From Curtobacterium sp. 9128 (GTDB lineage: Bacteria > Actinomycetota > Actinomycetes > Actinomycetales > Microbacteriaceae): a DNA stretch of 64,000 bases. The notes below the pieces were generated by a model. That model was given only the letters and a program-made list of their open reading frames with translations, searched no databases and had not been told where the DNA came from. Positions 10,042-29,521 of the stretch are shown in pieces (positions within the stretch are counted from its first letter, which is position 1; every line of letters begins with the position of its first letter). The stretch spans positions 1,860,001-1,924,000 of the forward strand of contig NZ_LT576451.1 in assembly GCF_900086645.1 (NCBI RefSeq). Reading direction: 5' to 3'. The translations under genes and the position numbers were made by a program.

Positions 10042-10045
10042 CAAG

Positions 10046-10051: not shown

Positions 10052-10058
10052 GGCGACC

Positions 10059-12691: not shown

Positions 12692-14218
12692 ATGGCGCAG
12701 CTGGACAACGGACCAGAGCACGACGACTTCCCGGAGTACGACGACGCCCTCGGCGAGCGTCTCGCGGGCCTCGACGAGTCGGAAGCGGAGCAGCGGGCGA
12801 CCGCACTCCGCGCCGGCCTCGAGGACTACGACCTCGACGAGGAAGACGTCGCGCTCCTCGACTCCGCGCAGTTCGGCGAGGACGGCGTCGCGTACCTGCC
12901 GGCACTCCCGGTCCTCGCGATCGTCGGTCGTCCGAACGTCGGCAAGTCCGCGCTCGTGAACCGCATCATCGGTCGCCGCGAAGCCGTCGTGCAGGACGTC
13001 CCCGGCGTCACGCGTGACCGTGTGAGCTACAAGGCCGAGTGGAACGACAAGCGCTTCACCCTGGTGGACACCGGCGGGTGGGAGCCCGATGCGAAGGGCA
13101 TCAACGCCTCGGTCGCGCTCCAGGCAGAGGTCGCGATCGACCTCGCCGACGCCGTGCTGTTCGTCGTCGACGTCACGGTCGGCATCACCGCGACCGACGA
13201 GCACGTCGTGAAGATGCTGCGCGGCACCGACAAGCCGGTGATCGTCGTGGCGAACAAGTCCGACGACGACCGCCGCGACCTCGACGCCTACGAGCTCTGG
13301 AACCTCGGGCTCGGCGAGCCACACCCGGTCTCCGCCCTCCACGGTCGTGGCGTCGCGGACCTCCTCGACCTCATCATCACGACCCTCCCCGACGTCTCGG
13401 CGGTCGCGAAGCAGGAGATCGGCGGCCCTCGTCGCGTGGCGATCCTCGGACGCCCGAACGTCGGCAAGAGCTCGCTGCTCAACAAGGCGGCCGGCGAAGA
13501 ACGCGTCGTCGTGAACGAGCTCGCCGGCACCACCCGCGACCCCGTGGACGAGCAGGTCGAGCTCGGTGGCCGTGTCTGGCGCTTCGTCGACACCGCCGGC
13601 ATCCGCAAGCGGGTGCACCTCCAGCAGGGCGCGGACTTCTACGCCTCGCTCCGTACGACGGCCGCGCTCGAGAAGGCCGAGGTCGCCGTGGTCGTCCTCG
13701 ACGTCACCGAGCCCGTGTCCGTCCAGGACCTCCGCATCATCGACCTCGTGCTCGAGTCCGGTCGCGCACTGGTCCTCGCGTACAACAAGTGGGACCTGCT
13801 CGACGACGAGCGTCGTCGGTACCTCGAGCGTGAGATCGAACAGGACCTCGCGCACGTGGCGTGGGCGCCGCGCGTGAACATCTCGGCCCGCACCGGCCGG
13901 CACCTCGAGAAGCTCGTCCCGGCCCTCGAGACCGCGCTCGAGTCGTGGGACACCCGCATCCCGACGGGCAAGGTCAACGCCTTCATCGCCGAGCTCGTGC
14001 AGGAGCACCCGCACCCGGTCCGTGGCGGCCGCCAGCCGCGCATCCTGTTCGGCACCCAGGCCGCGAGCCAGCCGCCGACGTTCGTGCTCTTCACGACCCA
14101 GTTCCTCGACCCGCAGTACCGCCGGTTCATCACCAGGCGTCTGCGCGAGGTCTGGGGCTTCGCTGGAACGCCGATCACCGTGAACATGCGCGTCCGCGAG
14201 CGCCGGAAGCGCACCTGA
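12692..14218 (+). CDS. der: Ribosome-assembly GTPase Der
   Basis: A 508-residue protein with two tandem Era-like GTPase domains, needed for 50S subunit maturation. G1 motifs GRPNVGKSA (about residue 79) and GRPNVGKSS (about 253) are each followed by DTGGW or DTAGI (G3) and by NKSDD or NKWD (G4). The C-terminal KH-like domain ends in [19 protein letters not shown]. The N-terminal 70 residues are acidic, which is usual in actinobacteria. An AAGGAA ribosome binding site lies 8 nt before the ATG. Confidence 0.96.
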
Positions 14219-14246
14219 TCCCTCCCCGGAACGGCATGCACGGGCG

Positions 14247-14252: not shown

Positions 14253-14258
14253 CCGTGC

Positions 14259-14804: not shown

Positions 14805-14856
14805 CGCCGTCGACCCGGCCACGCCGGTCGCGCGGGGTGCGCGCCGGTCGCGATCC

Positions 14857-14886
14857 GAGCCTCCCGGCTGGTCGGACGGGAGGCTC
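14857..14886. terminator. Intergenic hairpin of the GAGCCTCCCG family
   Basis: GAGCCTCCCG (14857-14866) pairs perfectly with CGGGAGGCTC (14877-14886) around a 10-nt loop. There is no T-tract. It lies after the 14259 gene and before the next gene and may act as a terminator. The arm sequence recurs at 33100 and 41352. Confidence 0.6.
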
Positions 14887-14925
14887 GTGGCACGTGATCC
14901 GCGCCGGATACGGCACCATGGACGG

Positions 14926-15450
14926 GTGACGCTGCAATCCATCGCGGACCGGGCCGACCGGCTGTGGTGCCGACTCCGGCTCGACCGCCTGGCCGGCGGC
15001 CGACAGGCCGACTACGTGATCCGTGAGGACATGCTCGCGCACCCCGCGACCGTGCGGTCGTTCCGGTGGATCCGCTGGTTGCTCGTCGCCGAGACGTTGG
15101 TGGGTCTCGCCGCGATCGTCGTGGCGATCCTGCTCACGCGGGCCGGCGAGACGATCCCGTGGGCCGTGTGGTTCCGGGCGACCGTGGTGCTCCTCATCAC
15201 GCTGACGCTGTACGTGTTCGCCTGGCGTGCGCAGCTCGGGTACTACTGGGCGTACCAGCGGCTGCGGTTGTTCAGCAGGATCTTCCCGATCGTGACGCTC
15301 ATCATCGCGGCGATCCCCGGGCTCTACCCGTTCTGGATGGTGATCGAGCAGATCGTCTTCTCGGTGTTCATGATCGGCATCGGTGACGTGCTCACATCCG
15401 ACCACATGCGCTCGGCCTTCCCGAAGCCCGCGAAGCGTGCGGCTCCGTAG
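14926..15450 (+). CDS. Multi-pass membrane protein of unknown function
   Basis: A 174-residue protein with four predicted hydrophobic segments (starting about WIRWLLVAETLVGLAAIVVA, then WFRATVVLLITLTLYVFAW, FPIVTLIIAAIPGLYPFW and IVFSVFMIGIGDVLT). The N-terminal 45 residues are charged and soluble. GTG 14926 is chosen because a CACCAT box ends 6 nt before it. The frame upstream runs through the hairpin and is not credible coding. The family is not recognised and no active-site motif is seen. Confidence 0.7.
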   Translation: MTLQSIADRADRLWCRLRLDRLAGGRQADYVIREDMLAHPATVRSFRWIRWLLVAETLVGLAAIVVAILLTRAGETIPWAVWFRATVVLLITLTLYVFAWRAQLGYYWAYQRLRLFSRIFPIVTLIIAAIPGLYPFWMVIEQIVFSVFMIGIGDVLTSDHMRSAFPKPAKRAAP

Positions 15451-15453
15451 GAT
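15448..15453 (+). promoter_or_regulatory. -10 box (TAGGAT) before the 108-residue acidic protein gene
   Basis: TAGGAT overlaps the stop of the preceding gene and ends 6 nt before ATG 15460. Confidence 0.5.
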
Positions 15454-15459
15454 CGCGTC

Positions 15460-15786: not shown

Positions 15787-15851
15787 GACCCCGGGTCCCA
15801 GGGACCATCGGGGCCTGTCACCGATCCCGGAGCCGGAGGATCGTGGACGAC

Positions 15852-16727
15852 ATGACGAACACGACGCTCCCCGGCGGCACCTACCGTCTCGCCGACGACC
15901 TCGAACTCACCCGTGTCGGGTACGGCGCGATGCAGCTGGCCGGACCGGGGGCGTTCGGCCCGCCCGCCGACCACGACGAGGCGATCCGCGTGCTCCGCGA
16001 GGTCGTCGACCTCGGCATCACGCACATCGACACCTCGGACTACTACGGCCCGTTCGTGACGAACGCCCTCATCCGCGAGGCGCTCGCGCCCTACCCGGAC
16101 GACCTGCGCATCGTGACGAAGGTCGGCGCTCGACGCGACGAGCAGGGTGGGTGGCCCGAGGCGCGGGAACCGCACGAGCTCATCGAGCAGGTGCACGACA
16201 ACCTCCGGAACCTCGGCGTCGAGCGACTCGACGTGGTGAACCTGCGCATGGGTGGCATGGAAGGCCCACAGCCCGGATCGATCGCTCCCCAGTTCGAGGC
16301 GCTCGCCGAGCTCCAGCAGCAGGGGCTCATCAACCACCTGGGGCTCTCGACGGTGGACGCCGAACAGCTCGCGGAGGCGCAGGGCATCGCACCGGTCGTG
16401 TGCGTGCAGAACCTGTACAACGTCGCGCACCGTGAGGACGACCCCTTCGTCGACCTCACCGCTGCGCAGGGGATCGCCTTCGTGCCCTACTTCCCGCTCG
16501 GCGGCTTCTCGCCGATCCAGTCAGGGGCGCTCGATGCGGTCGCCGCCCGTCTCGAGGTGTCGCGCCTGACCGTCGCGCTGTCGTGGCTGCTGCAGCGGTC
16601 GCCGAACATGCTCCTGATCCCGGGGACGTCGTCGGTCGCGCATCTGCGCGACAACGTCGCGTCGGCGGGCTTCGCGCTGCCGGCCGACGCGGTGGCTGAG
16701 CTGGACGCGATCGGCACCGCCGCGTAG
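15852..16727 (+). CDS. Aldo/keto reductase
   Basis: A 291-residue NAD(P)H-dependent (beta/alpha)8 aldo/keto reductase. Catalytic Asp and Tyr lie in THIDTSDYYGP, and Lys in RIVTKVG. Where most members have a catalytic His after the next strand, this protein reads VVNLRMGG, with Arg in its place, as in the YdbC-like branch. The cofactor segment LLIPGTSSVAHLRDN is intact. ATG 15852 is preferred over GTG 15843 because GGAGGA lies 11 nt before it. The substrate is unknown. Confidence 0.87.
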   Translation: MTNTTLPGGTYRLADDLELTRVGYGAMQLAGPGAFGPPADHDEAIRVLREVVDLGITHIDTSDYYGPFVTNALIREALAPYPDDLRIVTKVGARRDEQGGWPEAREPHELIEQVHDNLRNLGVERLDVVNLRMGGMEGPQPGSIAPQFEALAELQQQGLINHLGLSTVDAEQLAEAQGIAPVVCVQNLYNVAHREDDPFVDLTAAQGIAFVPYFPLGGFSPIQSGALDAVAARLEVSRLTVALSWLLQRSPNMLLIPGTSSVAHLRDNVASAGFALPADAVAELDAIGTAA

Positions 16728-16805: not shown

Positions 16806-19800
16806 GTGAAACTCAAGATGACCATCGGCGGCACGGCAGGGGGCGATCGCGACGTCGTCGTGACGGCGGACGTGACCGCGACGATCGGGAGCCTCGCGAA
16901 CCGGTTGGCGACCGGCAGTCCGGCCGGGGTGCACCCGCTCACGCTGCGCGTGCAGTTCCCGGACCGCCCGCAGGCCCGGCTGCTCAACCCGTCGGCGACG
17001 GTGCACGAGTCCTCGCTGCGGTCCGGCTGCCGGGTGGAGGTCGTGCCGGTCACCGAGCGGCGGCGTGGGGACGACGTGGAGGACGCACCCGCCGCCGTCG
17101 TGCAGGTCCTCGCCGGTCCGGAGGCGGGACACGAGTACACGCTCTCGCGCGGCGTGAACCTCATTGGACGCGATGCGATGGCGCAGGTGTACCTCGCTGG
17201 TGACGACGAGGTCTCGCGCCGCCACGCGTCGGTCACGGTCGGCGAGACGATCGAGGTCGTCGACCTCAACTCGGCGAACGGCGTCTCCGTCGACGGTCGG
17301 CTCGTCGCACGGGCCTTCGTCGAGCCGTCGTCCGAGGTGCAGGTGGGGGAGTCCCGGCTCCGCATCGTGCCACTCGCGTCCAGTGGACTCCCGACGCTCC
17401 CCGGTGCCGCCGAGACGCCGTCGGAGTTCTCGCGGTCCCCGCGGGTGGATCCCGCGTACCGGGGCCGGTCGTTCACGCTGCCGGAGATCCCCGTCCCCGG
17501 CGAGAAGCCACGGCTCCCGATCATCGCGATCATCGCGCCGATCGTGCTGGGCGCCGTGCTGTTCCTCGTCACGAAGCAGCCGTACACGCTCATCTTCATC
17601 GCGCTGTCCCCGGTGATCATGATCGGGACGTGGATCGACCAGCGCGTGCAGGTCAAGCGGCGGAAGCGCGACGAACGGCAGCGCTTCGAGGACTCGCTCG
17701 CGGACGTCCGCACGCGGCTCGCGGCGGAGCGGGCGCGCGAGATCGACGCCCGGGTGGCCGAATCGCCAGCTCCCGCCGTCGTGACGGCGGCGATGCGGAC
17801 GGGGTCAGAGCTGCTCTGGACGCGCAAACCCGAGCACACCACGTTCCTCGAGGTCCGGTTCGGCGCAGGGACCCAGCCGTCGCACGCATCGATCACGCTG
17901 CCGTCGAAGAACACCGGCAGCGTCGACGACTGGAACCGCGCAGAAGCACTCGCCGACGAGTACGCCACCGTCGGTCCCGTCCCGGTCATCGAGACGTTCG
18001 AACGAGCCGGTGCGATCGGCGTCGCCGGGACCGGACTCGCTGCCGACGACGTCGCTCGGTCGCTCGTCGTGCAGCTCGTCGGACTGCACAGCCCGGCCGA
18101 CCTCGTCGTCACGGCCTTCGCCGGCGGCACCACGACCGAACAGTGGGGGTGGTTGAAGTGGCTGCCGCACGTCGACTCCGCGTACAGCCCGCTCCGCTCC
18201 GGCGGGCTCGTCAGCGACTTCGCGGGCGCGTCGACGCTGCTCGCCGAACTCGAGGGGCTCGTCGCCACCCGCCGTGACGCCGGCGCGGGTCGCGGCGAGC
18301 AGGTGCGGTCGCGTCTGGACGAGGGGCACGCGCTCGACGAGGAGCACGGCGAATCCGTCGACCGGCTGCCGGCGACCCCCGCGGTGCTCGTCATCGTCAC
18401 CGCGGAGGCCCCGGCCGACCGCGCTCGGCTGGTGGCGCTCGCCGAGGAGGGCGCGGACTTCGGCGTCTTCGTGCTGTGGCTCGCCCCGACGCAGCAGGCG
18501 CTGCCGGTGGTGTGCCGGACGTACATCTCCCTCGACCGCTCCACCGGGACCGCGACCGTCGGGTTCGTGCGGTCCGGCCAGGCGGTCGTGCTCGACGAGC
18601 TCGACCGCGTCGACGTGATCGAGGCCGCGACCGTCGCCAGGGCCATCGCACCCGTCCAGGACACCGGCGCCCGTGTGCTCGACGAGACCGACCTGCCGCA
18701 CAGCGTCGCGTTCGTCGACCTGTACGAGGGCGACCTCGCCGGCGACCCGGTGGCCGTCGTCAGCCGCTGGGCGAAGAACGACAGCATCACCGCGGACTGG
18801 GTGCCCGGAGCCGGTCGCGAAGCCGGCGGGATCCGGGCGGTCATCGGGCAGGGACCGAGCGAGCCGCTCGCGCTCGACCTCAGGACCCAGGGTCCGCACG
18901 CACTCGTCGGCGGGACCACGGGTTCCGGCAAGAGCGAGTTCCTGCAGACGTGGATCATGGGGATCGCGGCCGAGTACGCCCCGGACCGCGTGACGTTCCT
19001 GCTCGTCGACTACAAGGGCGGTGCGGCGTTCGCCGAGTGCGTCGGGCTGCCGCACACGGTCGGACTCGTCACCGACCTCAACCCGCACCTGGTCCGCCGC
19101 GCCCTGACGTCGTTGCGGGCGGAACTGCGGTACCGCGAGCACCTCCTCAACGAGCGGGGTGCGAAGGACCTCGTCACGCTCGAGCAGCGCGGTGATCCGG
19201 CGGCGCCGCCGTCGCTCGTGATCGTCATCGACGAGTTCGCCGCCCTCGCCTCCGAGATCCCCGAGTTCATCGACGGGGTCATCGACGTCGCACAGCGTGG
19301 TCGTTCGCTGGGGCTCCACCTCGTGATGGCGACGCAGCGGCCGAGCGGGGTCATCAAGGACTCCCTGCGCGCGAACACGAACCTCCGCATCGCCCTGCGC
19401 GTCGCCGACGAGGTGGACAGCGCCGACGTCCTCGGTGTGCCCGACGCGGCGTGGTTCGATCCGGGCACCCCCGGACGCGCTGCGGCGAAGACGGGACCGG
19501 GGCGCGTCCTGGACTTCCAGACGGCGTACCTCGGTGGACGGTCGGACGACGTCGTGCACGAGCCCGACATCGACGTGCAGGACTTCCCGTTCGGGCCGGG
19601 CACGATGTGGCCGAGTGCCGCACGGGCTCCGCGGGACACCGCTCGCGCGAAGGACATCGAGCGGCTCGCCGGCACCATCGCGGCCGCGGCGGATCGACGC
19701 TCGCTCGCGATCCCGCGGAAGCCGTGGCTCGACCAGCTCGGCGAGAGCGTCGACCTCGGCGCGGTCGGGCGATCCGACGGAGCGTCGCTCGTCATCGGCA

Positions 19801-21410
19801 CGCTCGACGTCCCGGAACACCAGCAGCAGACCGCCTACGCCGTCGACCTCGACGTCGTCGGCAACGTCGCCGTGCTCGGGACCGGTGGCTCCGGCAAGTC
19901 CACGGTGCTCCGCGCCGTCGCCATCGCGGCGTCCTCGGTGGCCGACGACCACCCCGTGCAGGTCTACGGACTCGACTTCGGCGGCGGCGGACTCTCGATG
20001 CTCGATGCACTGCCCACCGTCGGGTCCGTGATCAGCGGGCCGGATGACGAACGCATCACGCGCCTCCTGGTCGATCTGGAGGCGACCATCTCGGACCGTT
20101 CGCAGCGGTTCGCGGCGGCCCGATCCTCCTCGCTGACCGAGTACCGGACCGTCACCGGCGAGGCGGAGCCGCGCATCCTGGTGCTCGTCGACGGGATGGG
20201 CGCGTTCCGGAACGAGTACGAGTTCCGGCCCGGCACGCTGCAGCTGTTCGACCAGGTGCTCGCGATCGCCTCCACCGGGCGGGCGCTCGGCGTGCACCTC
20301 GTGATGTCGGCCGACCGTGTCGGGGCCTTCCCGACGAACCTGCAGGCGAACATCGGCGAACGGATCGTGCTGCGGCTCGCGAGCGACATCGAGTACAACG
20401 CGGCCGACGTGGCCGCGGACGTGCTCGAAGACGCCGTCCCCGGGCGTGGACTCGTGGGATCGCACGAGGTGCAGATCGCCGTCCCGGCCGGGAGTGCCGA
20501 CCTCGTCGTGCAGGCCGGGGCGGTGGAGGCGCTGTCTCGTTCCCTGGTGGCGCATGGGGTACCGGCGACGCCAGCGGTCCGCCGGCTGCCGTCGTCCGTC
20601 CCGGTTTCGTCGTTGCCGGTCGCGGTCGACGGCCGGCCCGTGATCGGCCTGGCCGACGACACGTTGGCCGCCGTCGGCATCCCGACCGATGGTCTCTTCG
20701 TCGTCACCGGGCCGTTCGGGTCCGGACGGAGCACGACGATGCGGACGCTCATCGGGTCCGTCACGGCGACGTACCCGGACCGTCCCGCGTACCTCGTCGT
20801 CGGGCGTCGGAGCGCGCTCCGGGACGCCACTGACTGGGCCGCGGTCGCGAGTGACTCCGACTCGGCCGACGCGCTTGCCAGCCAGCTGGCGTCGTCGCTC
20901 GAAGCAGGAGGGACGATCGACCCGTCGCCGTTCATCGTGATCGAGAACGTCGGCGACTTCGAGGGGCTGCCAGCCGAGTCGCAGGTCGCGCGGCTGATCA
21001 AAGCCGCTCGACGCGCAGGGGTGTTCGTCCTCGCCGAGGCCGACACCGTCACCGCGCCGAGCGCCTGGCAGCTCTTCGGGGAGCTCAAGACCGCCCGCGC
21101 GGGCATCGCGCTGCAGCCGGAGGAGACCGACGGGCTGACGCTGTTCCGGACGGCGTTCCCGCGCTGTACGCGGTCGGACTTCCCGCTCGGGCGGGGGTTC
21201 ATGGTCGACTCCGGACGGGTCACCCGGGTGCAGGTCGCGTTGCCGGGTTCTGGTTCCGGTTCTGATTCGGGTTCTGGTTCTGGTTCTGGTTCGGGTTCCG
21301 GTTCTGGTTCGGGTTCTGGTTCCCATCGCATGGGTGAGGAATTCTCCTCCTCTGGTAGCGTGCCAGATGTCGCCGGAGGGGCTGGCGACGAGAACCGAAC
21401 GAGGGGATGA
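16806..21410 (+). CDS. Type VII secretion motor ATPase (EccC/EssC-like) with ubiquitin-like and FHA domains
   Basis: A 1534-residue FtsK/SpoIIIE-family motor. In order: a ubiquitin/YukD-like N-terminus (residues 1-80), an FHA domain (about 98-190, with LIGRD, SRRHASV and LNSANG), two membrane helices (about 237-277), then three ATPase domains. Walker A motifs are GGTTGSGKSE (about 702), GTGGSGKST (about 1025) and GPFGSGRST (about 1302). The third has Arg for the P-loop Lys. Domain 1 has the Walker B run LVIVIDEFAAL. In T7SS this motor recognises WXG100 substrates and drives export. A Gly-Ser repeat tail follows the last domain. No EccB, EccD, EccE or mycosin gene is nearby. Confidence 0.9.
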   Translation: MKLKMTIGGTAGGDRDVVVTADVTATIGSLANRLATGSPAGVHPLTLRVQFPDRPQARLLNPSATVHESSLRSGCRVEVVPVTERRRGDDVEDAPAAVVQVLAGPEAGHEYTLSRGVNLIGRDAMAQVYLAGDDEVSRRHASVTVGETIEVVDLNSANGVSVDGRLVARAFVEPSSEVQVGESRLRIVPLASSGLPTLPGAAETPSEFSRSPRVDPAYRGRSFTLPEIPVPGEKPRLPIIAIIAPIVLGAVLFLVTKQPYTLIFIALSPVIMIGTWIDQRVQVKRRKRDERQRFEDSLADVRTRLAAERAREIDARVAESPAPAVVTAAMRTGSELLWTRKPEHTTFLEVRFGAGTQPSHASITLPSKNTGSVDDWNRAEALADEYATVGPVPVIETFERAGAIGVAGTGLAADDVARSLVVQLVGLHSPADLVVTAFAGGTTTEQWGWLKWLPHVDSAYSPLRSGGLVSDFAGASTLLAELEGLVATRRDAGAGRGEQVRSRLDEGHALDEEHGESVDRLPATPAVLVIVTAEAPADRARLVALAEEGADFGVFVLWLAPTQQALPVVCRTYISLDRSTGTATVGFVRSGQAVVLDELDRVDVIEAATVARAIAPVQDTGARVLDETDLPHSVAFVDLYEGDLAGDPVAVVSRWAKNDSITADWVPGAGREAGGIRAVIGQGPSEPLALDLRTQGPHALVGGTTGSGKSEFLQTWIMGIAAEYAPDRVTFLLVDYKGGAAFAECVGLPHTVGLVTDLNPHLVRRALTSLRAELRYREHLLNERGAKDLVTLEQRGDPAAPPSLVIVIDEFAALASEIPEFIDGVIDVAQRGRSLGLHLVMATQRPSGVIKDSLRANTNLRIALRVADEVDSADVLGVPDAAWFDPGTPGRAAAKTGPGRVLDFQTAYLGGRSDDVVHEPDIDVQDFPFGPGTMWPSAARAPRDTARAKDIERLAGTIAAAADRRSLAIPRKPWLDQLGESVDLGAVGRSDGASLVIGTLDVPEHQQQTAYAVDLDVVGNVAVLGTGGSGKSTVLRAVAIAASSVADDHPVQVYGLDFGGGGLSMLDALPTVGSVISGPDDERITRLLVDLEATISDRSQRFAAARSSSLTEYRTVTGEAEPRILVLVDGMGAFRNEYEFRPGTLQLFDQVLAIASTGRALGVHLVMSADRVGAFPTNLQANIGERIVLRLASDIEYNAADVAADVLEDAVPGRGLVGSHEVQIAVPAGSADLVVQAGAVEALSRSLVAHGVPATPAVRRLPSSVPVSSLPVAVDGRPVIGLADDTLAAVGIPTDGLFVVTGPFGSGRSTTMRTLIGSVTATYPDRPAYLVVGRRSALRDATDWAAVASDSDSADALASQLASSLEAGGTIDPSPFIVIENVGDFEGLPAESQVARLIKAARRAGVFVLAEADTVTAPSAWQLFGELKTARAGIALQPEETDGLTLFRTAFPRCTRSDFPLGRGFMVDSGRVTRVQVALPGSGSGSDSGSGSGSGSGSGSGSGSGSHRMGEEFSSSGSVPDVAGGAGDENRTRG
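21246..21323 (+). repeat. Thirteen GGTTCN hexamers coding a Gly-Ser tail
   Basis: Thirteen consecutive 6-bp units (mostly GGTTCT, GGTTCC or GGTTCG, one GATTCG) encode Gly-Ser pairs at the C-terminus of the T7SS motor. Unit changes keep the reading frame, so the tail can vary in length without loss of the gene. Confidence 0.9.
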
Positions 21411-21412
21411 CC

Positions 21413-21709
21413 ATGCCGAACATCAACGTGTCCTACCAGGAGCTCAACGGCAACGCGGACCGGCTGCTTGCTGGTCGTGACGAGATCAACGCGACGCTGT
21501 CGAAGCTGCAGGCACAGATCGCATCGCTGACGCAGGCGGGGTTCCAGACGGACCGGTCGTCGGGGGCGTACAACGACGCGTACCAGCGCTTCACCTCCGG
21601 TGCGCAGAACACCATCGGTGGGCTGAACGACCTGGCGCAGTTCCTGCGCACCACGGCGACCACGCTGGGCGACGTGGACCAGCAGCTGGCGTCGAAGCTG
21701 GGTCGCTGA
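21413..21709 (+). CDS. WXG100/Esx-like small secreted protein
   Basis: A 98-residue, mostly helical protein with the size and hairpin layout of WXG100 substrates. A first helix (YQELNGNADRLLAGRDEINA) is followed by a turn and a second helix ending LGDVDQQLASKLGR. The Trp-X-Gly turn itself is absent: the equivalent region reads AGFQTDRSSGAYNDAYQRF. ATG 21413 is preferred over ATG 21407 because GAGGGG lies 6 nt before it. It directly follows the motor gene and is the likely Esx partner for secretion. Confidence 0.8.
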   Translation: MPNINVSYQELNGNADRLLAGRDEINATLSKLQAQIASLTQAGFQTDRSSGAYNDAYQRFTSGAQNTIGGLNDLAQFLRTTATTLGDVDQQLASKLGR

Positions 21710-21783
21710 GCCGGTCCGATCACAACGACACGGTCGGTACCGCTGGGGCGGTGCCGGCCGTGGATTCGTCACGGGGGTGACAA

Positions 21784-22074
21784 GTGGGCGGAGAGCTCAA
21801 GGTCGTCTACGCCGCACTCGATGCGGCGTCGGCGAAGGTGACGGCTGCGGCCGATGACATCCAGATCGGCTCACGAATCCGGCAGGGGGCCGGAGATGCC
21901 GAACTGGGATCGGATGCCGTGGCGTCGGCGCTGTCGAACGCGACGGCGCAGCAGGTGCAGCGGTCGGATCTCGTCGCGGAGAACGTGCGAGTTGCGGCAA
22001 AGTTCCCGCTGCAGGCCAAGCGGTCGTACCAGGAACAGGACTCTGCGCTGGCCGGAGCGGCGGCGAAGCAGTGA
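21784..22074 (+). CDS. Small helical T7SS-associated protein
   Basis: A 96-residue, cysteine-free protein predicted to be nearly all helix (VVYAALDAASAKVTAAADDI, RSYQEQDSALAGAAAKQ). Size, position between the Esx-like gene and the large substrate, and the 4-nt overlap with the substrate gene suggest that it is the chaperone or co-secreted partner of that substrate. It has no WXG motif and I do not recognise a named family. Confidence 0.72.
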   Translation: MGGELKVVYAALDAASAKVTAAADDIQIGSRIRQGAGDAELGSDAVASALSNATAQQVQRSDLVAENVRVAAKFPLQAKRSYQEQDSALAGAAAKQ

Positions 22075-23801
22075 GCTGGACACACGATGATCCGAGCCAG
22101 GGCAGTCCGGCCGCGATCCAGGGGCTGGCGCAGCTCCGGAGTGCGCGTGCAGGCAAGATCCGTGACGCCCAGCAGTCGTTGCAGGGTGCGGGATCGGGTT
22201 CTGGGGCAGAGTGGAAGGCGATGAGCCAGACCGCGTTCGCCTCGAAGCTGTCCGCGGATGCGGCGGACATCGAGTTGCTCGCGACGGGACTCGAGGCGCA
22301 GGCGTCCGCTCTGAAGACGTATGCCGGGCAACTGTCCCAGTTGCAGGACCGGCAGCGGGTGCTTGAGCAGCAGCGGTCCAGCGTGCAGATGGACCTTGGT
22401 CTCGCGAAGCTGAAGCTCAGCACGTCGAGCGCCGAGCTGCCGGCACTGCTCAAGGCGGAGACTCCCGATCCCGATGCGACGGCAGCTGCGAAACGGAAGT
22501 CCGCCGCTGCGCAGACTGCGGTCGATGATGCGCAGGCAAAGACCCGCGCGATCGACGCGCAGTGGGACCAGCTGGTTTCTGATCGGCGGTCGATGGACTC
22601 GACCTGTGTTGCTGCGTTGCAGGGCGAGGGCGTCCTCGGCAGCCTCGCCGGCGTCACGACCGCTGGCGTCGCTGGCAGTACCCCGGCAGCGCTTCTCGCC
22701 ATGATCGGCAACCTGAGCGCAATCGACCTCAAGATCCTGCTGAAGCAGCATCCGGAGCTCGCGGCAGCGCTTGACAAAGCTGCGCCGTCCGAAGTGTCGA
22801 CGTGGTGGAGTTCGCTTCCGGCCGGGCAGCAGGCCGCACTCGTGGCGGGGCTCCCAGCGGTGATCGGCGCGCTCAACGGTGTGCCGGCGCTCGCGCGGGT
22901 GGCGGCGAACAAGATCAATGCGGCGGAGCGACTCGGCGTTGTGCGAGACGAGATCGCCCGCCTGCGGAAGCTCGCGTCCGACGCGGGGACTCCCCAGCGT
23001 TTCGATGATCAGATCGCAGCGCTGGAGGACGAGCGTGACTACCTGAAGCGTGCGACGGGTGATCATCCCACGGTCCAGCTCTACTTGTACGATCACGCGA
23101 AGGACCGGATCATCGAGATGATCGGAACTCCGACGGATGCCACGAGAAACGTGATCACCTACGTTCCCGGAACGTTTGCAGACATGGGCGGGTTCTTCAG
23201 CGGTGAAACACAAAAAGTGGCGAGGTATATGCAGCAGCAAGGTGGAGTCGGCACCGTGGCGTTCGTGTACAAGGATGGAACCTTCCCGCAAAGCATCCCC
23301 GAAGCCAATTCCGAGGCTTTTGGGCTCGCGTCGGGCAAGCGTCTTGCGAACTTTGACTTCGGACTTCGAAGCCAACCCGATCTGCGATCCGCGCAACAGA
23401 TCGCTATGGGTCATAGTTGGGGCACTGCGAATGTGACTTCGTCGGAGGTGGCAGGTGCTCATTACGACAAAGTGCTGTCACTTGCGGGTGCTGGCGTGCC
23501 CTCCGGTTGGGAAAAGCGTGACGGAACCCGTTACGCGGACTTCTCCTACGATGACATCCTCCAGGATGCTCAGCATATCTCTGGCGGGTTGGTTTGGGAT
23601 GGCCGAAACCCGCGCGAGGTGGGCTTTGATCACGGCTCCTACTATTCCCCTCCGGATAAATACAAGGACTTCCCCTTGAATGGCGTGTATGACTCGCTAC
23701 GAAACGGGATGGGGCTTCACAATTTGATCGCGGGGACGGATGTCGAGAATCAGGGAGCGCTTCGCGACATGAAACAATTCATCTACGGAGGACGCCCGTG
23801 A
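22071..23801 (+). CDS. Putative T7SS substrate with C-terminal alpha/beta-hydrolase domain
   Basis: A 576-residue protein in three parts. The first 190 residues resemble an actinobacterial T7SS signal domain: EWKAMSQTAFASKLSADAAD, then long coiled-coil helices (QLSQLQDRQRVLEQQRSS). A helical middle is rich in Ala and Leu. The C-terminal 220 residues look like an alpha/beta hydrolase of the DUF1023 kind, with VITYVPGTFADMGG and the nucleophile elbow GHSWG (Ser449). Candidate His residues lie in VGFDHGSYY and GMGLHNLI. The natural reading is an exported lipase or esterase, perhaps an antibacterial effector. From about 23060 the DNA is less GC-rich, suggesting separate origin of the toxic end. 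It overlaps its neighbours by 4 nt on both sides. Confidence 0.78.
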   Translation: MSWTHDDPSQGSPAAIQGLAQLRSARAGKIRDAQQSLQGAGSGSGAEWKAMSQTAFASKLSADAADIELLATGLEAQASALKTYAGQLSQLQDRQRVLEQQRSSVQMDLGLAKLKLSTSSAELPALLKAETPDPDATAAAKRKSAAAQTAVDDAQAKTRAIDAQWDQLVSDRRSMDSTCVAALQGEGVLGSLAGVTTAGVAGSTPAALLAMIGNLSAIDLKILLKQHPELAAALDKAAPSEVSTWWSSLPAGQQAALVAGLPAVIGALNGVPALARVAANKINAAERLGVVRDEIARLRKLASDAGTPQRFDDQIAALEDERDYLKRATGDHPTVQLYLYDHAKDRIIEMIGTPTDATRNVITYVPGTFADMGGFFSGETQKVARYMQQQGGVGTVAFVYKDGTFPQSIPEANSEAFGLASGKRLANFDFGLRSQPDLRSAQQIAMGHSWGTANVTSSEVAGAHYDKVLSLAGAGVPSGWEKRDGTRYADFSYDDILQDAQHISGGLVWDGRNPREVGFDHGSYYSPPDKYKDFPLNGVYDSLRNGMGLHNLIAGTDVENQGALRDMKQFIYGGRP

Positions 23802-24283
23802 AGTGGCCTCAGGTCCTCGTCGTAGTTTTGGGAACTTCGCTTCTGACGGGATGTGTCATGAATACGAACGAAGATGCGGTAAGTCCGGAGAAGCGGATTT
23901 CGGAGGCGAAGTCGCGCACCCAGCAACTCGAACTGCGGATCGCGAAATTCATTCCTGACCGGGACGTGCGTGAGATCAATCAGCTCCCGAAGGGCTCGCT
24001 GCAGTCGTGTGATTCAGGCGATATGTGGGCAGGCGGGATCACGATCAGCCTGCGAGCCGATGTGAGGCCGATTGCTGCGCTCGGCGAGCTTCGTCAGAAA
24101 GCTGAGACGGCTGGGTTCGAGGTGGACCAGAGTAAATCCTTCAACGGTACTGAGCGTGTTACCGTCTCGGAAAAAAACGGAGCCTCAGTATTGCTCGACG
24201 TCACAACGCACGGCATCGAGGGTGGGTCGTTCTCGGAGTGCTTCTCGCTGCCCGACGACTTTTACCGTGGGGGAGAGTACTGA
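23798..24283 (+). CDS. Lipoprotein, family A (candidate immunity protein)
   Basis: A 161-residue lipoprotein with signal peptide MKWPQVLVVVLGTSLLTGC, lipobox LTGC and Cys19 as the acylation site. The mature part shares a pattern with the product of 25562: RTQQLELRIAKFIP, then GSLQSCDSG, WAGG, a GFEV strand and a closing FSECFSLPDDFYRGGEY. Two other cysteines (in LQSC and SEC) are conserved in both and could form a disulphide. It starts inside the stop of the hydrolase gene, the usual place for an immunity gene. Immunity is inferred from order and location only. Base composition is low for this genome. Confidence 0.72.
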   Translation: MKWPQVLVVVLGTSLLTGCVMNTNEDAVSPEKRISEAKSRTQQLELRIAKFIPDRDVREINQLPKGSLQSCDSGDMWAGGITISLRADVRPIAALGELRQKAETAGFEVDQSKSFNGTERVTVSEKNGASVLLDVTTHGIEGGSFSECFSLPDDFYRGGEY

Positions 24284-24353
24284 GGTAAATGATGCGTCAG
24301 TGCAGAGCCGAACGAGTAGGGTCGCTGTCAATGGGGAAAATGAGGCGGAAGCA

Positions 24354-24887
24354 TTGAAGCTACCTCGCACCGCGATGGTGGCTGTCGCGAGCGTCGGTTT
24401 TCTTTCTGTGATCTCGACCGCCGGGTGCAGCGGGGCTAACACCGGAGAACAATCGAACGTGAGTACGTCCCGGATTGCTCATGCAGGTGAAGCCCTCGAC
24501 GTCGCCCGAGCACAGCTCTCCAAGATGCCTGGCATCTCCGAGTCCTCCATCAAAGTCGACAGGACGGTAACCGGACTGCAGACAAATCGTCGCATCTGGA
24601 TCGAGGCGACGAGCGACTCGACGTCACGAGACGAACAGGCAAGGCAGGTGGAGCAACTTTTCCGACTTGGTTGGTCCGTCAACGACGTCGATGCGAACAA
24701 GGGGGTCAGTGTGCGGATGCACACCTCACCGCAGGTGATCGTCGGTGACCTTCTTGACAGTTCGTGGACTGACCGCGAGTTCCGTTCCTCACCGGGGAGC
24801 TTCAGAGCGCTCGTCGTCGTCCCGCGATCGTCCTTGGAATCCAAGCTGGGGAAGTGGCCGGGTGATGTGCCCGACCTCGAGTCGTGA
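24354..24887 (+). CDS. Lipoprotein, family B, copy 1
   Basis: A 177-residue lipoprotein. TTG 24354 gives MKLPRTAMVAVASVGFLSV with lipobox TAGC (Cys25). The frame is open further upstream, but only this start yields a basic n-region, and it makes the protein exactly as long as its paralogue at 25003. Shared pattern: HAGEALDVARAQLSKMPG, TVTGLQTNRRIWIEA, LGWSVNDVDANKGVSVRM, then SPQVIVGD and a closing KWPGDVPD. It has no cysteine besides the lipid-modified one. Function is unknown; it lies between the two family A genes. Confidence 0.68.
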   Translation: MKLPRTAMVAVASVGFLSVISTAGCSGANTGEQSNVSTSRIAHAGEALDVARAQLSKMPGISESSIKVDRTVTGLQTNRRIWIEATSDSTSRDEQARQVEQLFRLGWSVNDVDANKGVSVRMHTSPQVIVGDLLDSSWTDREFRSSPGSFRALVVVPRSSLESKLGKWPGDVPDLES

Positions 24888-25002
24888 AAGTCGGGGATCG
24901 ACGACGCCCACGACCGGTCATTCAGATCGGTCGTGCAAGACAAGACAAGGCGACTGCGACGGTCGACCACTGCGGCCACGATTGCCACAACAAGGGAGCG
25001 AC

Positions 25003-25536
25003 TTGATAGGCCGACGTCGACGCCTCGCGTGCATCGGTGCGGCCATCGTCATCGTGGGGTCGGGCGGAGGGTGCAGCGCAATGGGTCCCCGAGATCAGGC
25101 ACCGACAAGCTCGATTGAGACGGCGCACCCACACGCGGGGCAGTCTCTCGAAGCCGCGCGTGGACAGCTTCGAGCCATGTCTGGCCTGACTGACACATCC
25201 GTCGACATCGATGAGACGGTGTCGGGGCTGAACACGCACCACCAGGTGCTCGTGACTGCGACGGTCGACGATCCCGCACGGCTCCCGACGGTGATCAACA
25301 CGTTGGCGCAACTCGGCTGGTCGGTGAACGACCACGAGCCGGACGCCGGCATCTTCGTCGGGATGCGACTCTCGCCACAGCCCGTGATCGGAGATATTGC
25401 AAAGGAGGAAGGGTGGACCGATGCTGCCTATGCCACGTCGACGGATCGGTTGAAGCAACTGGTGCTCCTGCCGGAAAGCGCGGTCGAGAAGCGCTTCGGA
25501 GAATGGCCGGGCTCCGCACCAGACGCTTCCGGCTGA
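25003..25536 (+). CDS. Lipoprotein, family B, copy 2
   Basis: A 177-residue paralogue of the 24354 product. TTG 25003, preceded by GGGAG, gives MIGRRRRLACIGAAIVIVG and a weak lipobox GGGC (Cys24). It matches copy 1 along its length: HAGQSLEAARGQLRAMSG, TVSGLNTHHQVLVTATV, LGWSVNDHEPDAGIFVGM, SPQPVIGD and EWPGSAPD. Identity looks moderate, so the duplication is not recent. Its GC content is closer to the genome average than that of copy 1. Function is unknown. Confidence 0.7.
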   Translation: MIGRRRRLACIGAAIVIVGSGGGCSAMGPRDQAPTSSIETAHPHAGQSLEAARGQLRAMSGLTDTSVDIDETVSGLNTHHQVLVTATVDDPARLPTVINTLAQLGWSVNDHEPDAGIFVGMRLSPQPVIGDIAKEEGWTDAAYATSTDRLKQLVLLPESAVEKRFGEWPGSAPDASG

Positions 25537-25561
25537 CAGTCTCGACCGTGCAACCGAGTCG

Positions 25562-26089
25562 GTGCGCACCGTGAGGCTGGCTGCGCTCGTCGTGGTGGCC
25601 GTTCTGCTGCTGACGGGATGTGGTCGGACGGAGGCGGATGACACCAGCACACCTTCTGCGACGTCCGGTGCCGGGACCGCCGACACCGAAAAGCTGATCC
25701 ACGCACAGAAGATCCGCACGCAGGCGATCGAACTCCAGATCGCGGAGAGCATCCCTGGTCACGGCGAGGTTCGCCAGTCGAAGAACGGAGCGCTGTTCGC
25801 CTGCGCTGGGGGTGGTCGCCAGTGGGTGGGCGGTGCGGATGTCGTGATGGACGGTCGAACCGACATCGATTCGATCGTGGAGTCGCTCCTGCAGCGATGG
25901 GACGGTCATGACGGGTACATCGCGAACCGAACCTCCGATTCGGCGGGCCGCCCGACCGCCGAGATCGTCGGCGCTGACGGCGAGGGCTACCTCGTCGCGC
26001 AGGGAACGACCGACAACGATGTCACGCTCACCTCGTCCTCGCGTTGCTTCGCAGTGCCGGATGGGTTCAGCGGGGCTGGGTCCTGGTAG
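25562..26089 (+). CDS. Lipoprotein, family A, copy 2
   Basis: A 175-residue paralogue of the 23798 product. Signal peptide MRTVRLAALVVVAVLLLTGC has the lipobox LTGC (Cys20). A Ser/Thr-rich linker follows, then the family pattern: KIRTQAIELQIAESIPGHGE, GALFACAGG, WVGG, and the closing SSRCFAVPDGFSGAGSW. The two family A cysteines are conserved. It closes the T7SS locus; the next gene is an unrelated MetE-like protein with its own promoter. Confidence 0.7.
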   Translation: MRTVRLAALVVVAVLLLTGCGRTEADDTSTPSATSGAGTADTEKLIHAQKIRTQAIELQIAESIPGHGEVRQSKNGALFACAGGGRQWVGGADVVMDGRTDIDSIVESLLQRWDGHDGYIANRTSDSAGRPTAEIVGADGEGYLVAQGTTDNDVTLTSSSRCFAVPDGFSGAGSW

Positions 26090-26188: not shown

Positions 26189-27319
26189 ATGACCTCGCAG
26201 CGACCGCCGTACCGTGCCGACATCGTCGGCAGCTTCCTCCGCCCCGCCAGCGTGAAGGACGCCCGTCAGCGTGCTGCCGCGGGCACGATCGACCCGATCG
26301 AGCTGCAGTCGGTGGAGGACGAGGCAATTCGCGGCCTGATCGACTCCGAGGTCGAGGCCGGGCTCCAGCTCGCGACCGATGGTGAGTTCCGCCGTGCCTG
26401 GTGGCACCTCGACTTCTGGGGCGGCCTGAACGGCGTCGAGGTCGTCGAGCTGGATCACGGCATCGCGTTCCAGGGGGTCGAGACCACCCCGAAGGGCATG
26501 CGGGTCACCGGCCCGGTGTCGTTCCCAGCCGATCACCCGTTCCTCGCGCACGCCGCGTTCGTGCTCGCCGAGGCAGCGCGGCGCAGTGTGACGGCGAAGA
26601 TGACGATCCCGTCGCCGACCGTGTTCGACTTCCGGCTCGACGCCGACCAGATCCGCACGGACCACTACGCCGACCGCGATGCGATCACCGACGACCTCGT
26701 GCAGGCCTACCGCGACGCGATCGCCGCGTTCTACGACGCGGGCGTCCGTTACCTGCAGCTCGACGACACGGCGTGGGCGTACGCCTGCTCCGATGTGGAG
26801 ATGGAGAAGGCACGAGCTCGGGGGATCGAGACCGACGGCATCGCGGAGCGGTTCGCCACGATCATCCGCCGGGTCCTCGACGGTCGGCCCGACGACCTGG
26901 TCGTGACGACGCACGTGTGTCGCGGGAACTTCCGGTCGACGTGGATCGCGTCGGGCGGGTACGAGCCGGTGGCGGAGCAGATGCTCGGGCACACGGGTTA
27001 CGACGGATTCTTCCTGGAGTACGACAGCGACCGTGCGGGTGGATTCGAGCCGCTGCGATTCCTGCCGAAGGGCGACCAGGTGGTGGTCCTCGGGCTGATC
27101 ACGTCGAAGTCGGGGGAGCTCGAGGACCCGGCGGTCATCGAGCGTCGGATCGCCGAGGCCGCCGAGTTCGCCCCGCTCGACCAGCTGGCGCTGAGCCCGC
27201 AGTGCGGTTTCGCATCGACCGAGGAGGGCAACGTCCTGACCGAGGACGAGCAGTGGGCGAAGGTCGGATCGGTGGTCGAGATCGCCGAGCGGGTGTGGCC
27301 GACCGCTGCCCGCCCCTAG
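26189..27319 (+). CDS. MetE C-terminal-like methyltransferase (YxjG/YxjH type)
   Basis: A 376-residue protein that matches only the catalytic C-terminal barrel of cobalamin-independent methionine synthase. It starts RADIVGSFLRPASVKDARQ as in stand-alone YxjG/YxjH-like proteins. Zinc ligands are visible as THVCRGN (His, Cys) and SPQCGF (Cys), and the substrate region as TDGEFRRAWW and YLQLDDTAWAY. These proteins probably transfer a methyl group to homocysteine or a related thiol, but the methyl donor of this branch is uncertain. Full MetE is about 750 residues, so this is a single-barrel relative, not a truncation. Confidence 0.82.
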   Translation: MTSQRPPYRADIVGSFLRPASVKDARQRAAAGTIDPIELQSVEDEAIRGLIDSEVEAGLQLATDGEFRRAWWHLDFWGGLNGVEVVELDHGIAFQGVETTPKGMRVTGPVSFPADHPFLAHAAFVLAEAARRSVTAKMTIPSPTVFDFRLDADQIRTDHYADRDAITDDLVQAYRDAIAAFYDAGVRYLQLDDTAWAYACSDVEMEKARARGIETDGIAERFATIIRRVLDGRPDDLVVTTHVCRGNFRSTWIASGGYEPVAEQMLGHTGYDGFFLEYDSDRAGGFEPLRFLPKGDQVVVLGLITSKSGELEDPAVIERRIAEAAEFAPLDQLALSPQCGFASTEEGNVLTEDEQWAKVGSVVEIAERVWPTAARP

Positions 27320-27373: not shown

Positions 27374-29521
27374 CTAAGCGACGGTAGCGAGCGCGAACGG
27401 CAGCACGGCGGATGCCCCCGCACGTCGGAGCTCCCGACCGGCGACGGTCATCGTCCACCGGCTGTCGACGAGGTCGTCCACGAGCAGCACCGGTCCTTGG
27501 TGCGATTGCAGCGCCGAAGACAGAGCAGGCCCGACCGTGAAGCTGTCCCACACGCCGGCCAGCCGGTAGGCGCTGTTCGTCGCACCGTCCCCTCGCGGCG
27601 TCCCACCGGTGCGGTCGAGCGTCCCGAGGAACTCGAGCTTCCCGATCGACGACAGTGCCTGCGCGAGCGACGAGACGAGCTGCGGCCGGGACTGCGACGA
27701 CATCGCCACGACACCGGTCGGCCGGGTCTCCCACGGCCAGTCCTTGAGCGCCCGGATGCAGCCGTCGAGGAGTTCGCGCGAGACCGGTGCGTCGGCGACC
27801 CCGGACGCGAAGAGCGCGCGCAGCGGACCACCCCAGCCGAGGTCGGTCAGACGGGCGACGGCGCGACCGGGCGCGACGACCTCGTCGGCGGCGAGCTTGC
27901 CGCGCACGGGCACGTTCAGCGCGGACATGCCCGAGGGCCACTGCGCGCGGGGAGCGATCTCGACGCCGACCTGGTCGAGCGCCGAGGCGGCACCCGCTGA
28001 TGCGTCCGAAGGGACGTCGGCCGGGTACCAGGCGCCCGCACAGTTGTCGCAGCGGCCACAGGGTTCTGCCGAGGGGTCGTCGAGGTCCTGCTGCAGGAGC
28101 TGCATCCGGCAGGCGGAGGTCGACTCGTAGTCGAGCATCGATGCGGCCTCGGCAGCGCGGGCGGCAGCGACACGTTCGTAGCGCGCGGCGTCGTACTCCC
28201 ACGGCTGCCCGGTCGAGACCCACCCTCCGGTCACCCGGCGGACGGCACCATCGACGTCGAGGACCTTGAGCAGGAGCTCGAGGGTGGACCGCTTGATGTC
28301 GACGAGCCCTTCGAGTGCGACCGTCGACATCGCCGAGTCGGTCGACAGCGCGCCGAGGACCGCGGACGCGCGGGCTTCCGTCGGCATCGAGGCGCTGGCG
28401 AAGTACTTCCAGATCTCCTGGTCTTCGTACCCGGGGAGCAGGAGCACGTCGGCGTTGTCCGTCGCACGGCCGGCACGTCCGATCTGCTGGTAGTAGGCGA
28501 CGGGGGAGGACGGCGCCCCGACGTGCACGACGAACCCGAGGTCCGGCTTGTCGAACCCCATGCCGAGGGCGCTGGTGGCGACGAGGGCCTTCAGCTCGTT
28601 GCCCTTCAGCTGCTGCTCGAGCTGTTCGCGTTCGTCGGTGTCGGTGCGCCCGGTGTACGCACGGACGGCGTACCCGCTCTCGCGCAGGAGGCGCGCGATG
28701 TCCTCCGCCGCGGAGACGGTCAGCGTGTAGATGATGCCGCTGCCCGGCAGGTCACCGAGGTGCGCCAGGAGCCACCCGAGCCGGGCTCGGGCATCGGGGA
28801 GCGTGAGGACCCCGAGACGCAGGGAAGCGCGAGCCAACGACCCGCGGATGGTGAACACCGGGTCGGCTGGACCCGCGGTGAGCTGCTCGGCGACGTCCTC
28901 GACCACGCGCTCGTTCGCGGTGGCGGTGGTCGCCAGCACGGGCACGCCGTGCGGCAGGGACCGGATGAGTTCGGCGAGGCGCCGGTAGTCGGGACGGAAG
29001 TCGTGGCCCCAGTCCGAGATGCAGTGCGCTTCGTCGACGACGAGCATGCCCATCCGGGCGATCAGCGTCGGCAGCTGTTCGTCGCGGAACTTCGGGTTGT
29101 TCAGCCGCTCGGGGGAGACGAGCAGGACGTCCACCTCGTCACGGGCGAGCGCGGCCTGCGTGTCGGACCACTCATGGGCGTTCGCGGAGTTGATGGACAC
29201 GGCCCGGACACCCGCGCGGGCAGCGGCAGCGACCTGGTCGCGCATCAGGGCCAGCAGCGGCGACACGAGCACCGTCGGGCCCCCGCCGCGACGCCGCAGG
29301 AGCGGGGTCGCGAGGAAGTACACCGCGGACTTGCCCCACCCGGTGCGCTGGACGACGAGTGCACGCTGCCGGTGTTCGACCAGGGCCGAGATCGCTTCGA
29401 GCTGACCGGGGTGGAAGACGGCGTCGGGACGCCCGGTGAGCGCAGCGAGCGCTGCCTGCGCCTCGGCAGCGATGTCTGCAGAAGGCGAGGCGTTCGGCGG
29501 GGCTGCAACGGGGGTGTCCAT
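27374..29521 (-). CDS. RecQ-family DNA helicase with phosphoribosyltransferase-like C-terminus
   Basis: A 715-residue superfamily 2 helicase. Motif I is RTGWGKSAVYF and motif II DEAHCISDWGHDFRPDYRRL; motif VI lies in YYQQIGRAGR. A cysteine cluster (CRMQLLQQDLDDP, then CGRCDNC) matches the RecQ zinc domain. The HRDC domain is missing. Instead the C-terminal 200 residues end with GPVLLVDDLVDSRWTMTVAG, which resembles the PRPP-binding loop of type I phosphoribosyltransferases. RecQ unwinds DNA 3'-5' in repair and replication restart. The role of the tail is unknown. The start codon is the ATG just after the preceding lipoprotein gene on this strand. Confidence 0.87.
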   Translation of the reverse strand: MDTPVAAPPNASPSADIAAEAQAALAALTGRPDAVFHPGQLEAISALVEHRQRALVVQRTGWGKSAVYFLATPLLRRRGGGPTVLVSPLLALMRDQVAAAARAGVRAVSINSANAHEWSDTQAALARDEVDVLLVSPERLNNPKFRDEQLPTLIARMGMLVVDEAHCISDWGHDFRPDYRRLAELIRSLPHGVPVLATTATANERVVEDVAEQLTAGPADPVFTIRGSLARASLRLGVLTLPDARARLGWLLAHLGDLPGSGIIYTLTVSAAEDIARLLRESGYAVRAYTGRTDTDEREQLEQQLKGNELKALVATSALGMGFDKPDLGFVVHVGAPSSPVAYYQQIGRAGRATDNADVLLLPGYEDQEIWKYFASASMPTEARASAVLGALSTDSAMSTVALEGLVDIKRSTLELLLKVLDVDGAVRRVTGGWVSTGQPWEYDAARYERVAAARAAEAASMLDYESTSACRMQLLQQDLDDPSAEPCGRCDNCAGAWYPADVPSDASAGAASALDQVGVEIAPRAQWPSGMSALNVPVRGKLAADEVVAPGRAVARLTDLGWGGPLRALFASGVADAPVSRELLDGCIRALKDWPWETRPTGVVAMSSQSRPQLVSSLAQALSSIGKLEFLGTLDRTGGTPRGDGATNSAYRLAGVWDSFTVGPALSSALQSHQGPVLLVDDLVDSRWTMTVAGRELRRAGASAVLPFALATVA

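Follow-up and report, generated by a model that had tools for sequence, protein, structure and literature searches.

A type VII secretion-type locus of Curtobacterium with a putative effector of diverged hydrolase type and paired lipoproteins, a probable interbacterial weapon at a fixed chromosomal site

We analyzed a 64,000-nucleotide stretch of the Curtobacterium sp. 9128 genome (the window; positions 1860001-1924000 on a single contig of the 3.94-Mb genome), focusing on a locus at 16806-26089 of the window, plus strand. The locus encodes a type VII secretion system (T7SS) motor, a WXG100 protein, a small partner protein, a putative effector and four lipoproteins, all on the same strand:

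16806..21410, plus strand: T7SS motor of the EccC/EssC type (motor A), 1534 residues, with an FHA domain, a hydrophobic pair at about 237-277, FtsK/SpoIIIE ATPase domains and a Gly-Ser tail
21407..21709, plus strand: WXG100 protein, EsxA-like (PF06013, E 6.5e-14, above cut-off), its start overlapping the motor stop
21784..22074, plus strand: small effector partner, 96 residues, with YxxxD near its C-terminus and a 4-base overlap with the effector gene
22071..23801, plus strand: putative effector (effector A), 576 residues, with a WXG-like N-terminal region (W48, F56) and a diverged alpha/beta hydrolase (GHSWG, Ser449, His550)
23798..24283, plus strand: lipoprotein 1, alpha family, candidate cognate immunity protein, with a 4-base overlap with the effector gene
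24354..24887, plus strand: lipoprotein 2, beta family, candidate orphan immunity protein for the type 2 effector described below; inferred start TTG 24354
25004..25536, plus strand: lipoprotein 3, assigned to beta for its 37% identity with lipoprotein 2; inferred start TTG 25004
25562..26089, plus strand: lipoprotein 4, alpha family by profile searches

Start and stop codons overlap by four bases at three joints: motor to WXG100, partner to effector, and effector to lipoprotein 1. The signal-peptide-like starts and lipoboxes of the four lipoproteins were read by eye. An earlier, sequence-only reading of this DNA had described a 576-residue protein with GHSWG and four lipoproteins on one strand, and all of these are in place. 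It had also described two Esx-size proteins: the gene at 21407-21709 indeed encodes a WXG100 protein, but the 96-residue protein at 21784-22074, though Esx-sized, fell below every family cut-off in our Pfam scan.

Motor A matches the Pfam families FtsK_SpoIIIE (E 2.7e-57) and FHA (E 1.3e-7), and among PDB profiles it matches EccC 4nh0 (E 1.1e-81), which we take to be the T. curvata protein, YukB (1.8e-57) and the FHA proteins GarA and OdhI, bearing out the earlier assignment as a T7SS-type motor. The NCBIfam EssC and EccC equivalogs also match strongly, if below their cut-offs (EssC, 533.7 vs 778.4 bits). By the general criterion of an EccC/EssC-type FtsK/SpoIIIE motor together with a WXG100 protein, the locus is one of type VII secretion. 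The FHA domain retains GR, SRRH and NG residues, presumably those that bind phosphothreonine. Residues 1-90 may form a ubiquitin-like domain, with neither a family match in Pfam nor a meaningful match to a PDB profile. The C-terminal Gly-Ser tail is encoded by 12.8 copies of a 6-base repeat, GGTTCT, at 21246-21322; the motor of the sister genome G011, 97% identical, lacks this in-frame, length-variable tail.

As the sequence-only reading had noted, EccB, EccD, EccE and a mycosin are missing from the scanned open reading frames (ORFs) of the locus, an absence with genome-wide backing for EccD only. No EccD was found in the window genome (26 of 30 candidates scored). Across the 66 Curtobacterium genomes of our survey, EccD scored above cut-off in 21, showing that the search can detect it within the genus; the named control genomes all fell below the cut-off. 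Among the 18 genomes that carry motor A, G063 alone has an EccD. The EccD by which a T7SSa (ESX) system is recognized was thus not found in the genome of the window's motor A. The corresponding EccB search matched none of the 66 genomes and none of the controls, and is uninformative. For EccE and the mycosin the result covers the scanned locus ORFs, with no genome-wide search made; the same holds for the T7SSb components EsaA, EssA and EssB, none of which was recognized in the locus, and for the T7SSd components TsdD kinase, TsdH and the Ig-like TsdI, none of which was recognized beside motor A. The window genome encodes two further motors, at 312 and 524 kb. Of the earlier alternatives, that other copies are used or that the machine is minimal, the first needs correcting: no EccD turned up elsewhere in the genome, though these other motors did.

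Three further hydrolases of the window genome (B, C and D) exceed the cut-off of PF06259 (Abhydrolase_8; E 1.6e-22, 5.7e-24 and 2e-31), which we take to be the former DUF1023. Aligned with hhalign, 13 A-type effectors match hydrolases B, C and D with a probability of 99.9 and an E of 4.5e-31 over 498 columns. Positions invariant across 15 aligned sequences include W48 and F56 in the WXG-like region, and His448, Ser449, Gly451 and His550; we assign Ser449 and His550 as the putative catalytic residues. By this profile-level homology, with the predicted nucleophile in register, the window effector is a diverged relative of the Abhydrolase_8 alpha/beta hydrolases of Actinomycetota, differing in its GHSWG motif (vs [AG]HSYG) and in having no Pfam match of its own. 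Relatives match WXG100/T7SS_signal weakly, and no LXG domain was matched by the effector at E <= 1 in Pfam. A PDB sequence search with the effector and its relatives returned nothing meaningful, the best being a weak match to gastric lipase near the nucleophile (E 0.7), and a plasmid search gave three weak matches. The earlier description as a lipase-type effector stands as regards the hydrolase; lipase activity is a likely prediction.

Hydrolases B and C lie at 1,946 and 1,967 kb in cassettes that share the window's gene order: a small partner, an effector of about 580-600 residues and three lipoprotein-like genes, some of them without a clear lipobox. No motor was found in the ORFs read around either cassette. 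Hydrolase D, a 508-residue protein at 1,625 kb, shows no WXG-like N-terminus, which means that related domains can be put to other uses. This lends something to the idea that the window hydrolase works as an exoenzyme in nutrition or against a host, with the lipoproteins being surface proteins that have nothing to do with it. We consider that idea highly improbable, since the block-wise divergence, cassette switching and near-obligate pairing documented below are hallmarks of toxin-immunity loci.

Our scan of GTDB genomes yielded 60 loci, of which we analyzed 46 (L131-L176) from 11 named Micrococcales genera, leaving out one partial locus (L177) and 13 weak Streptomyces/Pseudonocardiaceae matches. 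An alpha-family lipoprotein gene lies directly behind the hydrolase gene in 45 of the 46 loci, with a 4-base overlap in 42. In the exception, L173, the stretch stops 371 bases past the hydrolase gene, and an alpha lipoprotein lies upstream. The L176 lipoprotein lacks a clear signal peptide at the start chosen for it. Counted by ORF, an alpha lipoprotein follows 45 of 47 hydrolases vs 1 of the 641 remaining long ORFs of these stretches, and a lipobox ORF with a 4-base overlap follows 43 of 47 vs 5 of 641. By this comparison, the genes for the hydrolase and the alpha lipoprotein are a near-obligate pair in the 11 genera, and in most cases they overlap. The N-terminus of the window effector was detected in the Curtobacterium and Frigoribacterium loci and in all Cryobacterium loci but L138, and went undetected in those of Microbacterium, Arthrobacter, Paenarthrobacter and Leucobacter. 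Because the pairing holds across differing N-termini, the lipoprotein goes with the hydrolase rather than with the delivery domain or motor. Near-obligate adjacency and co-variation, the marks of a toxin-immunity pair, are both present, pointing to a putative pair of this kind. Separately, in three Leucobacter loci (L159, L161, L166) the gene of the hydrolase effector is immediately preceded by a motor gene; the N-terminus of these effectors is unlike the window's.

The lipoproteins themselves reach no cut-off in Pfam or NCBIfam scans. A first search iteration merged most of them into a single family; this was driven by the signal peptides, and once these were removed, iterative profile searches parted the proteins into three families: alpha (41 members, including lipoproteins 1 and 4), beta (33, including lipoprotein 2) and gamma (18, from cassettes B and C). 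A search from lipoprotein 1 drifts into gamma (59 members) and never into beta. Lipoprotein 3 is placed in beta on the strength of its 37% identity to lipoprotein 2. In 26 alpha sequences the lipobox cysteine is invariant and two further cysteines are nearly so, as would be expected of proteins outside the cell. The four lipoproteins, which had been read as one cluster, thus split in two: 1 and 4 go with the window hydrolase, but 2 and 3 go with an alternative hydrolase that is absent here, and so look like orphan immunity genes.

This alternative emerged from the genus survey, whose effector and motor counts are lower bounds because the number of candidates scored per genome was capped. Full-length relatives of the effector occur in at least 12 other genomes of the genus, and an orthologous motor in at least 17, with 81-99% identity over residues 1-731. 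Motor A and effector A occur together in 8 of the 66 genomes, the motor only in 10, the effector only in 5 and neither in 43 (Fisher p 0.004, uncorrected for kinship). We mapped the complete set of 18 motor loci, and each carries exactly one of two cassette types; in none of the 18 stretches are both effectors found together. Seven loci (the window's own, G052, G011, G063, G032, G035, G031) carry type 1, the window's cassette. The other eleven (G005, G040, G060, G054, G030, G033, G053, G051, G004, G023, G013) carry type 2, with a 187-residue helical protein, a 284-residue protein, a GFSLGG protein of about 510 residues with weak, below-cut-off matches to alpha/beta hydrolases, and beta lipoproteins. 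We dropped a by-eye assignment of the 284-residue protein as EspG-like, which found no support in Pfam or PDB. A tree of the motors needs four switches of cassette type, the starred branches forcing four; the cassette label is somewhat clustered on the tree, 38 and 54 of 500 shuffles giving no more changes than observed.

Lipoproteins of the absent cassette type persist in both directions: beta genes at the type 1 loci of the window genome, G032, G035 and G031, and alpha genes at the type 2 loci of G030, G051 and G013. Alpha arrays with no full-length effector A beside them occur in G053, G060, G022, G054 and G016; the G054 array sits behind a WXG100 gene and a truncated partner, and that of G016 accompanies a 65-residue piece of the effector. 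Such copies bear on a different role for the lipoproteins, as accessories to secretion or to folding (part of the machine, or a foldase specific to the lipase) instead of immunity proteins. The lipoproteins are probably co-transcribed, their anchoring would place them at the spot where an exported enzyme folds, and the position of one of them directly behind 45 of 47 hydrolases would suit an accessory as well. Yet a machine part would track the motor and a foldase would hardly be hoarded, whereas we found arrays of 3-5 copies with no full-length effector A beside them (L072, L073, L075), one lone copy at the recQ site (L084) and further copies next to what is left of an effector, 65 residues long (L129), and the two lipoprotein families track two hydrolases behind one motor. 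We judge an accessory role unlikely, and the lipoproteins are best read as putative immunity proteins. Of the earlier proposal that they are immunity or accessory factors, the immunity side gains from the pairing and from its survival with other effector N-termini. Nor, for the most part, were they found widespread apart from T7SS genes, which the sequence-only reading had named as a finding that would count against it: effector-less copies in the genus lie mostly in T7SS-related loci, with alpha copies outside T7SS loci, in the stretch fetched, at L084 (the recQ site), L085 (a 3.5-kb contig) and L086 (a weak match).

In L079 (G051:C1:1176500-1194500), two alpha lipoprotein genes at 5294-7628 lie between the motor end and the WXG100 gene, and the same stretch holds pieces of a second, diverged motor C-terminal end, resembling a cassette-swap scar. 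Short pieces of the type 2 hydrolase lie downstream of the intact copy in L069 (10227-11328) and L080 (10071-10265), like silent toxin ends.

Comparison with G011 localizes the exchange. At the nucleotide level the two genomes are 97.4% identical in the aldo/keto reductase gene upstream of the locus, 95.9% in the motor and 98.7% in the WXG100 gene; within the effector, identity falls from 93.5% (residues 1-200) through 77.6% (201-350) to 59.4% in the hydrolase. Lipoproteins 1 and 4 are 52.7% and 65.3% identical, lipoproteins 2 and 3 are mostly unaligned, and identity returns to 94.3% in the gene after the lipoproteins. In 150-base windows it runs at 0.87-0.99 up to 22,800 and at or below 0.65 from 22,900 (about effector residue 280), the toxin and immunity genes being mostly 47-65% identical. 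The guanine-plus-cytosine (GC) content likewise drops, from about 0.68 in effector residues 1-200 to 0.57 in the hydrolase. Between G035 (type 1) and G013 (type 2), identity is 93-99% from the motor start into the WXG100 gene, 89% in the last sampled WXG100 window and about 50-60% thereafter. Compared between sister genomes, the predicted toxin end and lipoproteins thus differ as a block behind a conserved motor.

The locus occupies a defined chromosomal site, between der-u181-u224-aldo/keto reductase and recQ, with the following flanks in the window:

12692..14218, plus strand: GTPase, presumably Der/EngA-like by its sequence, without a family call; insertion-site flank, next to the recQ site in the majority of the genomes viewed
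15843..16727, plus strand: aldo/keto reductase, left flank (PF00248, E 1e-48), also present at many motor-less sites
26189..27319, plus strand: methionine-synthase-like protein (Meth_synt_2), right flank (PF01717, E 1.3e-11)
27374..29521, minus strand: helicase that we take to be RecQ-like; right flank of the site

The recQ gene was matched in 62 of the 66 genomes of the genus, four having no match at the threshold. These 62 comprise the 18 motor A genomes and 44 further sites that we viewed. At 41 of the latter no T7SS query matched, the sites of G022 and G062 being too short or without the far flank. The three others are exceptional: G057 has one alpha gene, and G043 and G044 have the effector and an alpha gene between der and u224, without a motor.

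Taken as a whole, the evidence makes it probable that the locus is a weapon against other bacteria that occupies a fixed site in the chromosome and encodes a hydrolase toxin and immunity lipoproteins; its toxin and immunity part looks like something that related bacteria exchange with one another. We envision that motor A, primed by the WXG100 protein and by a helical pair formed by the 96-residue partner and the effector N-terminus, would export the effector. Outside the cell, the alpha/beta hydrolase at the effector's C-terminus, which is probably a lipase or phospholipase, would attack the cytoplasmic membrane of a competing cell on its outer face. Lipoprotein 1, and probably lipoprotein 4, anchored on that face of the producer's own membrane, would bind the hydrolase and protect the cell. 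The comparisons show that in other genomes a second hydrolase, accompanied by a separate lipoprotein family, fills the same slot, and that lipoproteins of the absent cassette type persist, as lipoproteins 2 and 3 do here.

Several results pull against this model. The effector matched no Pfam family at cut-off, PF06259 included, and its hhalign score comes partly from the N-terminal half. The pairing was tested in 46 of the 60 fetched loci, 9 of the 46 come from Curtobacterium or kin genomes already surveyed, the alpha profile derives from loci of Curtobacterium itself, and the 641 control ORFs had passed a codon-GC filter not required of the hydrolases. The motor does not vary with cassette type: over seven segments (14 of the 18 motors), identity between cassette types is about that within types (in the last motor domain, a mean of 0.960 between vs 0.964 and 0.958 within; the largest within-type excess, for type 2, is 0.767 vs 0.709), and we discarded motor-cassette co-variation, which reportedly occurs among S. 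aureus EssC variants. Finally, 5 of 13 effector genomes (G048, G057, G014, G043, G044) have no motor A orthologue match, so export by motor A is only what we infer, and in G033 an effector A cassette lies away from motor A. The sequence-only reading's term "self-contained" was thus too strong.

The same five genomes favor another possibility, that the effector is toxic but leaves through another T7SS (that at 312 or 524 kb), or that motor A borrows envelope parts from it. Every one of the 18 motor A genomes gave one or more further motor matches, and no membrane accessory gene was recognized in the motor A locus besides flanking genes common to motor-less sites. On the other side, the effector lies directly behind motor A and WXG100 in 7 of 18 motor loci, and the partner carries YxxxD, a T7SSa signal, in all 8 motor-A-type cassettes vs none of 5 other effector A loci of the genus, though the 8 are kin. 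Overall we regard this route as somewhat unlikely, and retain export by motor A within the weapon model.

The nearest proven case is the S. aureus T7SSb lipase toxin system TslA/TlaA1/TlaA2/TilA, in which TslA has phospholipase activity (PMC10730906). Both systems join an alpha/beta lipase-type toxin to a helical T7 targeting domain with small helical partner(s), and place an immunity lipoprotein beside the toxin domain, with tandem, variable lipoprotein copies (PMC10730906). They differ in domain order, TslA beginning with the toxin and ending with the targeting domain (PMC10730906), whereas the window effector has the usual opposite order; in that TslA has two partners, against one small partner plus WXG100 here; and in that TilA is a DUF576 protein, whereas the window lipoproteins match neither DUF576 nor any Pfam family at cut-off. 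The window locus also belongs to Actinomycetota and has an FHA-bearing EccC/EssC motor, and its phospholipase activity is predicted only. In our searches DUF576 gave no match to the four window lipoproteins at E <= 1 and, even at E <= 10, none to the lipoproteins of cassettes B and C. As here, the T7 immunity repertoires of S. aureus and streptococci contain series of immunity genes that differ from one another, kept with or without a cognate toxin (PMC9484751); the window system differs in that two lipoprotein families, which stayed apart in profile searches, serve two alternative hydrolases at one site.

T7SS variants have been described as T7SSa-j, and T7SSd shares with our locus an FHA-bearing EccC/EssC motor in Actinomycetota, with no separate ubiquitin-like gene seen at our locus (PMC11217815). 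T7SSd has a kinase, TsdH and TsdI, not recognized beside motor A, and a motor with a fused ubiquitin-like domain goes unmentioned in the excerpted account (PMC11217815). Motor A could, as a tentative and rather doubtful suggestion, represent a stripped-down subtype outside T7SSa-j: one motor with fused ubiquitin-like and phosphothreonine-reading FHA domains and one WXG100 protein, without EccB/EccD/EccE-type partners, serving a swap site of two lipid-attacking hydrolases with their own lipoprotein families. That no EccD was found in the window genome bears on what a minimal T7SS needs.

Antibacterial T7SS toxins have mostly been described from Bacillota, and the picture in Actinomycetota is dominated by mycobacterial ESX and virulence. 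Within the open-licence papers that our searches covered we did not find DUF1023 joined to type VII secretion, nor Microbacterium together with EssC, toxin and type VII secretion; among the papers listed, none joined PF06259 to T7SS, Microbacteriaceae went unmentioned, and matches were mainly to Bacillota or unrelated. A Curtobacterium genome note mentions a WXG100 gene (PMC8830320). The locus offers a putative family of toxin-immunity pairs that is open to testing and occurs in 11 Micrococcales genera, an experiment of nature in allelic exchange with the motor kept almost constant, and a likely role for lipoproteins that fall below Pfam and NCBIfam cut-offs.

The surroundings of the other two motors were also read. 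Adjoining the 524-kb motor, L010 (G000:C1:522000-541999) holds two tandem T7SS substrate cassettes at 9073-13406, each with a WXG-like protein of about 475 residues and both with a WXG100 protein of identical 97-residue sequence. In L009 (G000:C1:308000-327999; 1829-15459), the 312-kb motor has a protein with a bacterial Ig domain (Big_9) before it and three WXG100-like genes and a 1172-residue putative polymorphic toxin after it, partly like the published T7SSd layout with its Ig-domain TsdI. In the window itself, a ribosomal RNA operon (16S, 23S and the start of 5S) occupies 58697-64000 and accounts for the low GC and high skew of the window's end.

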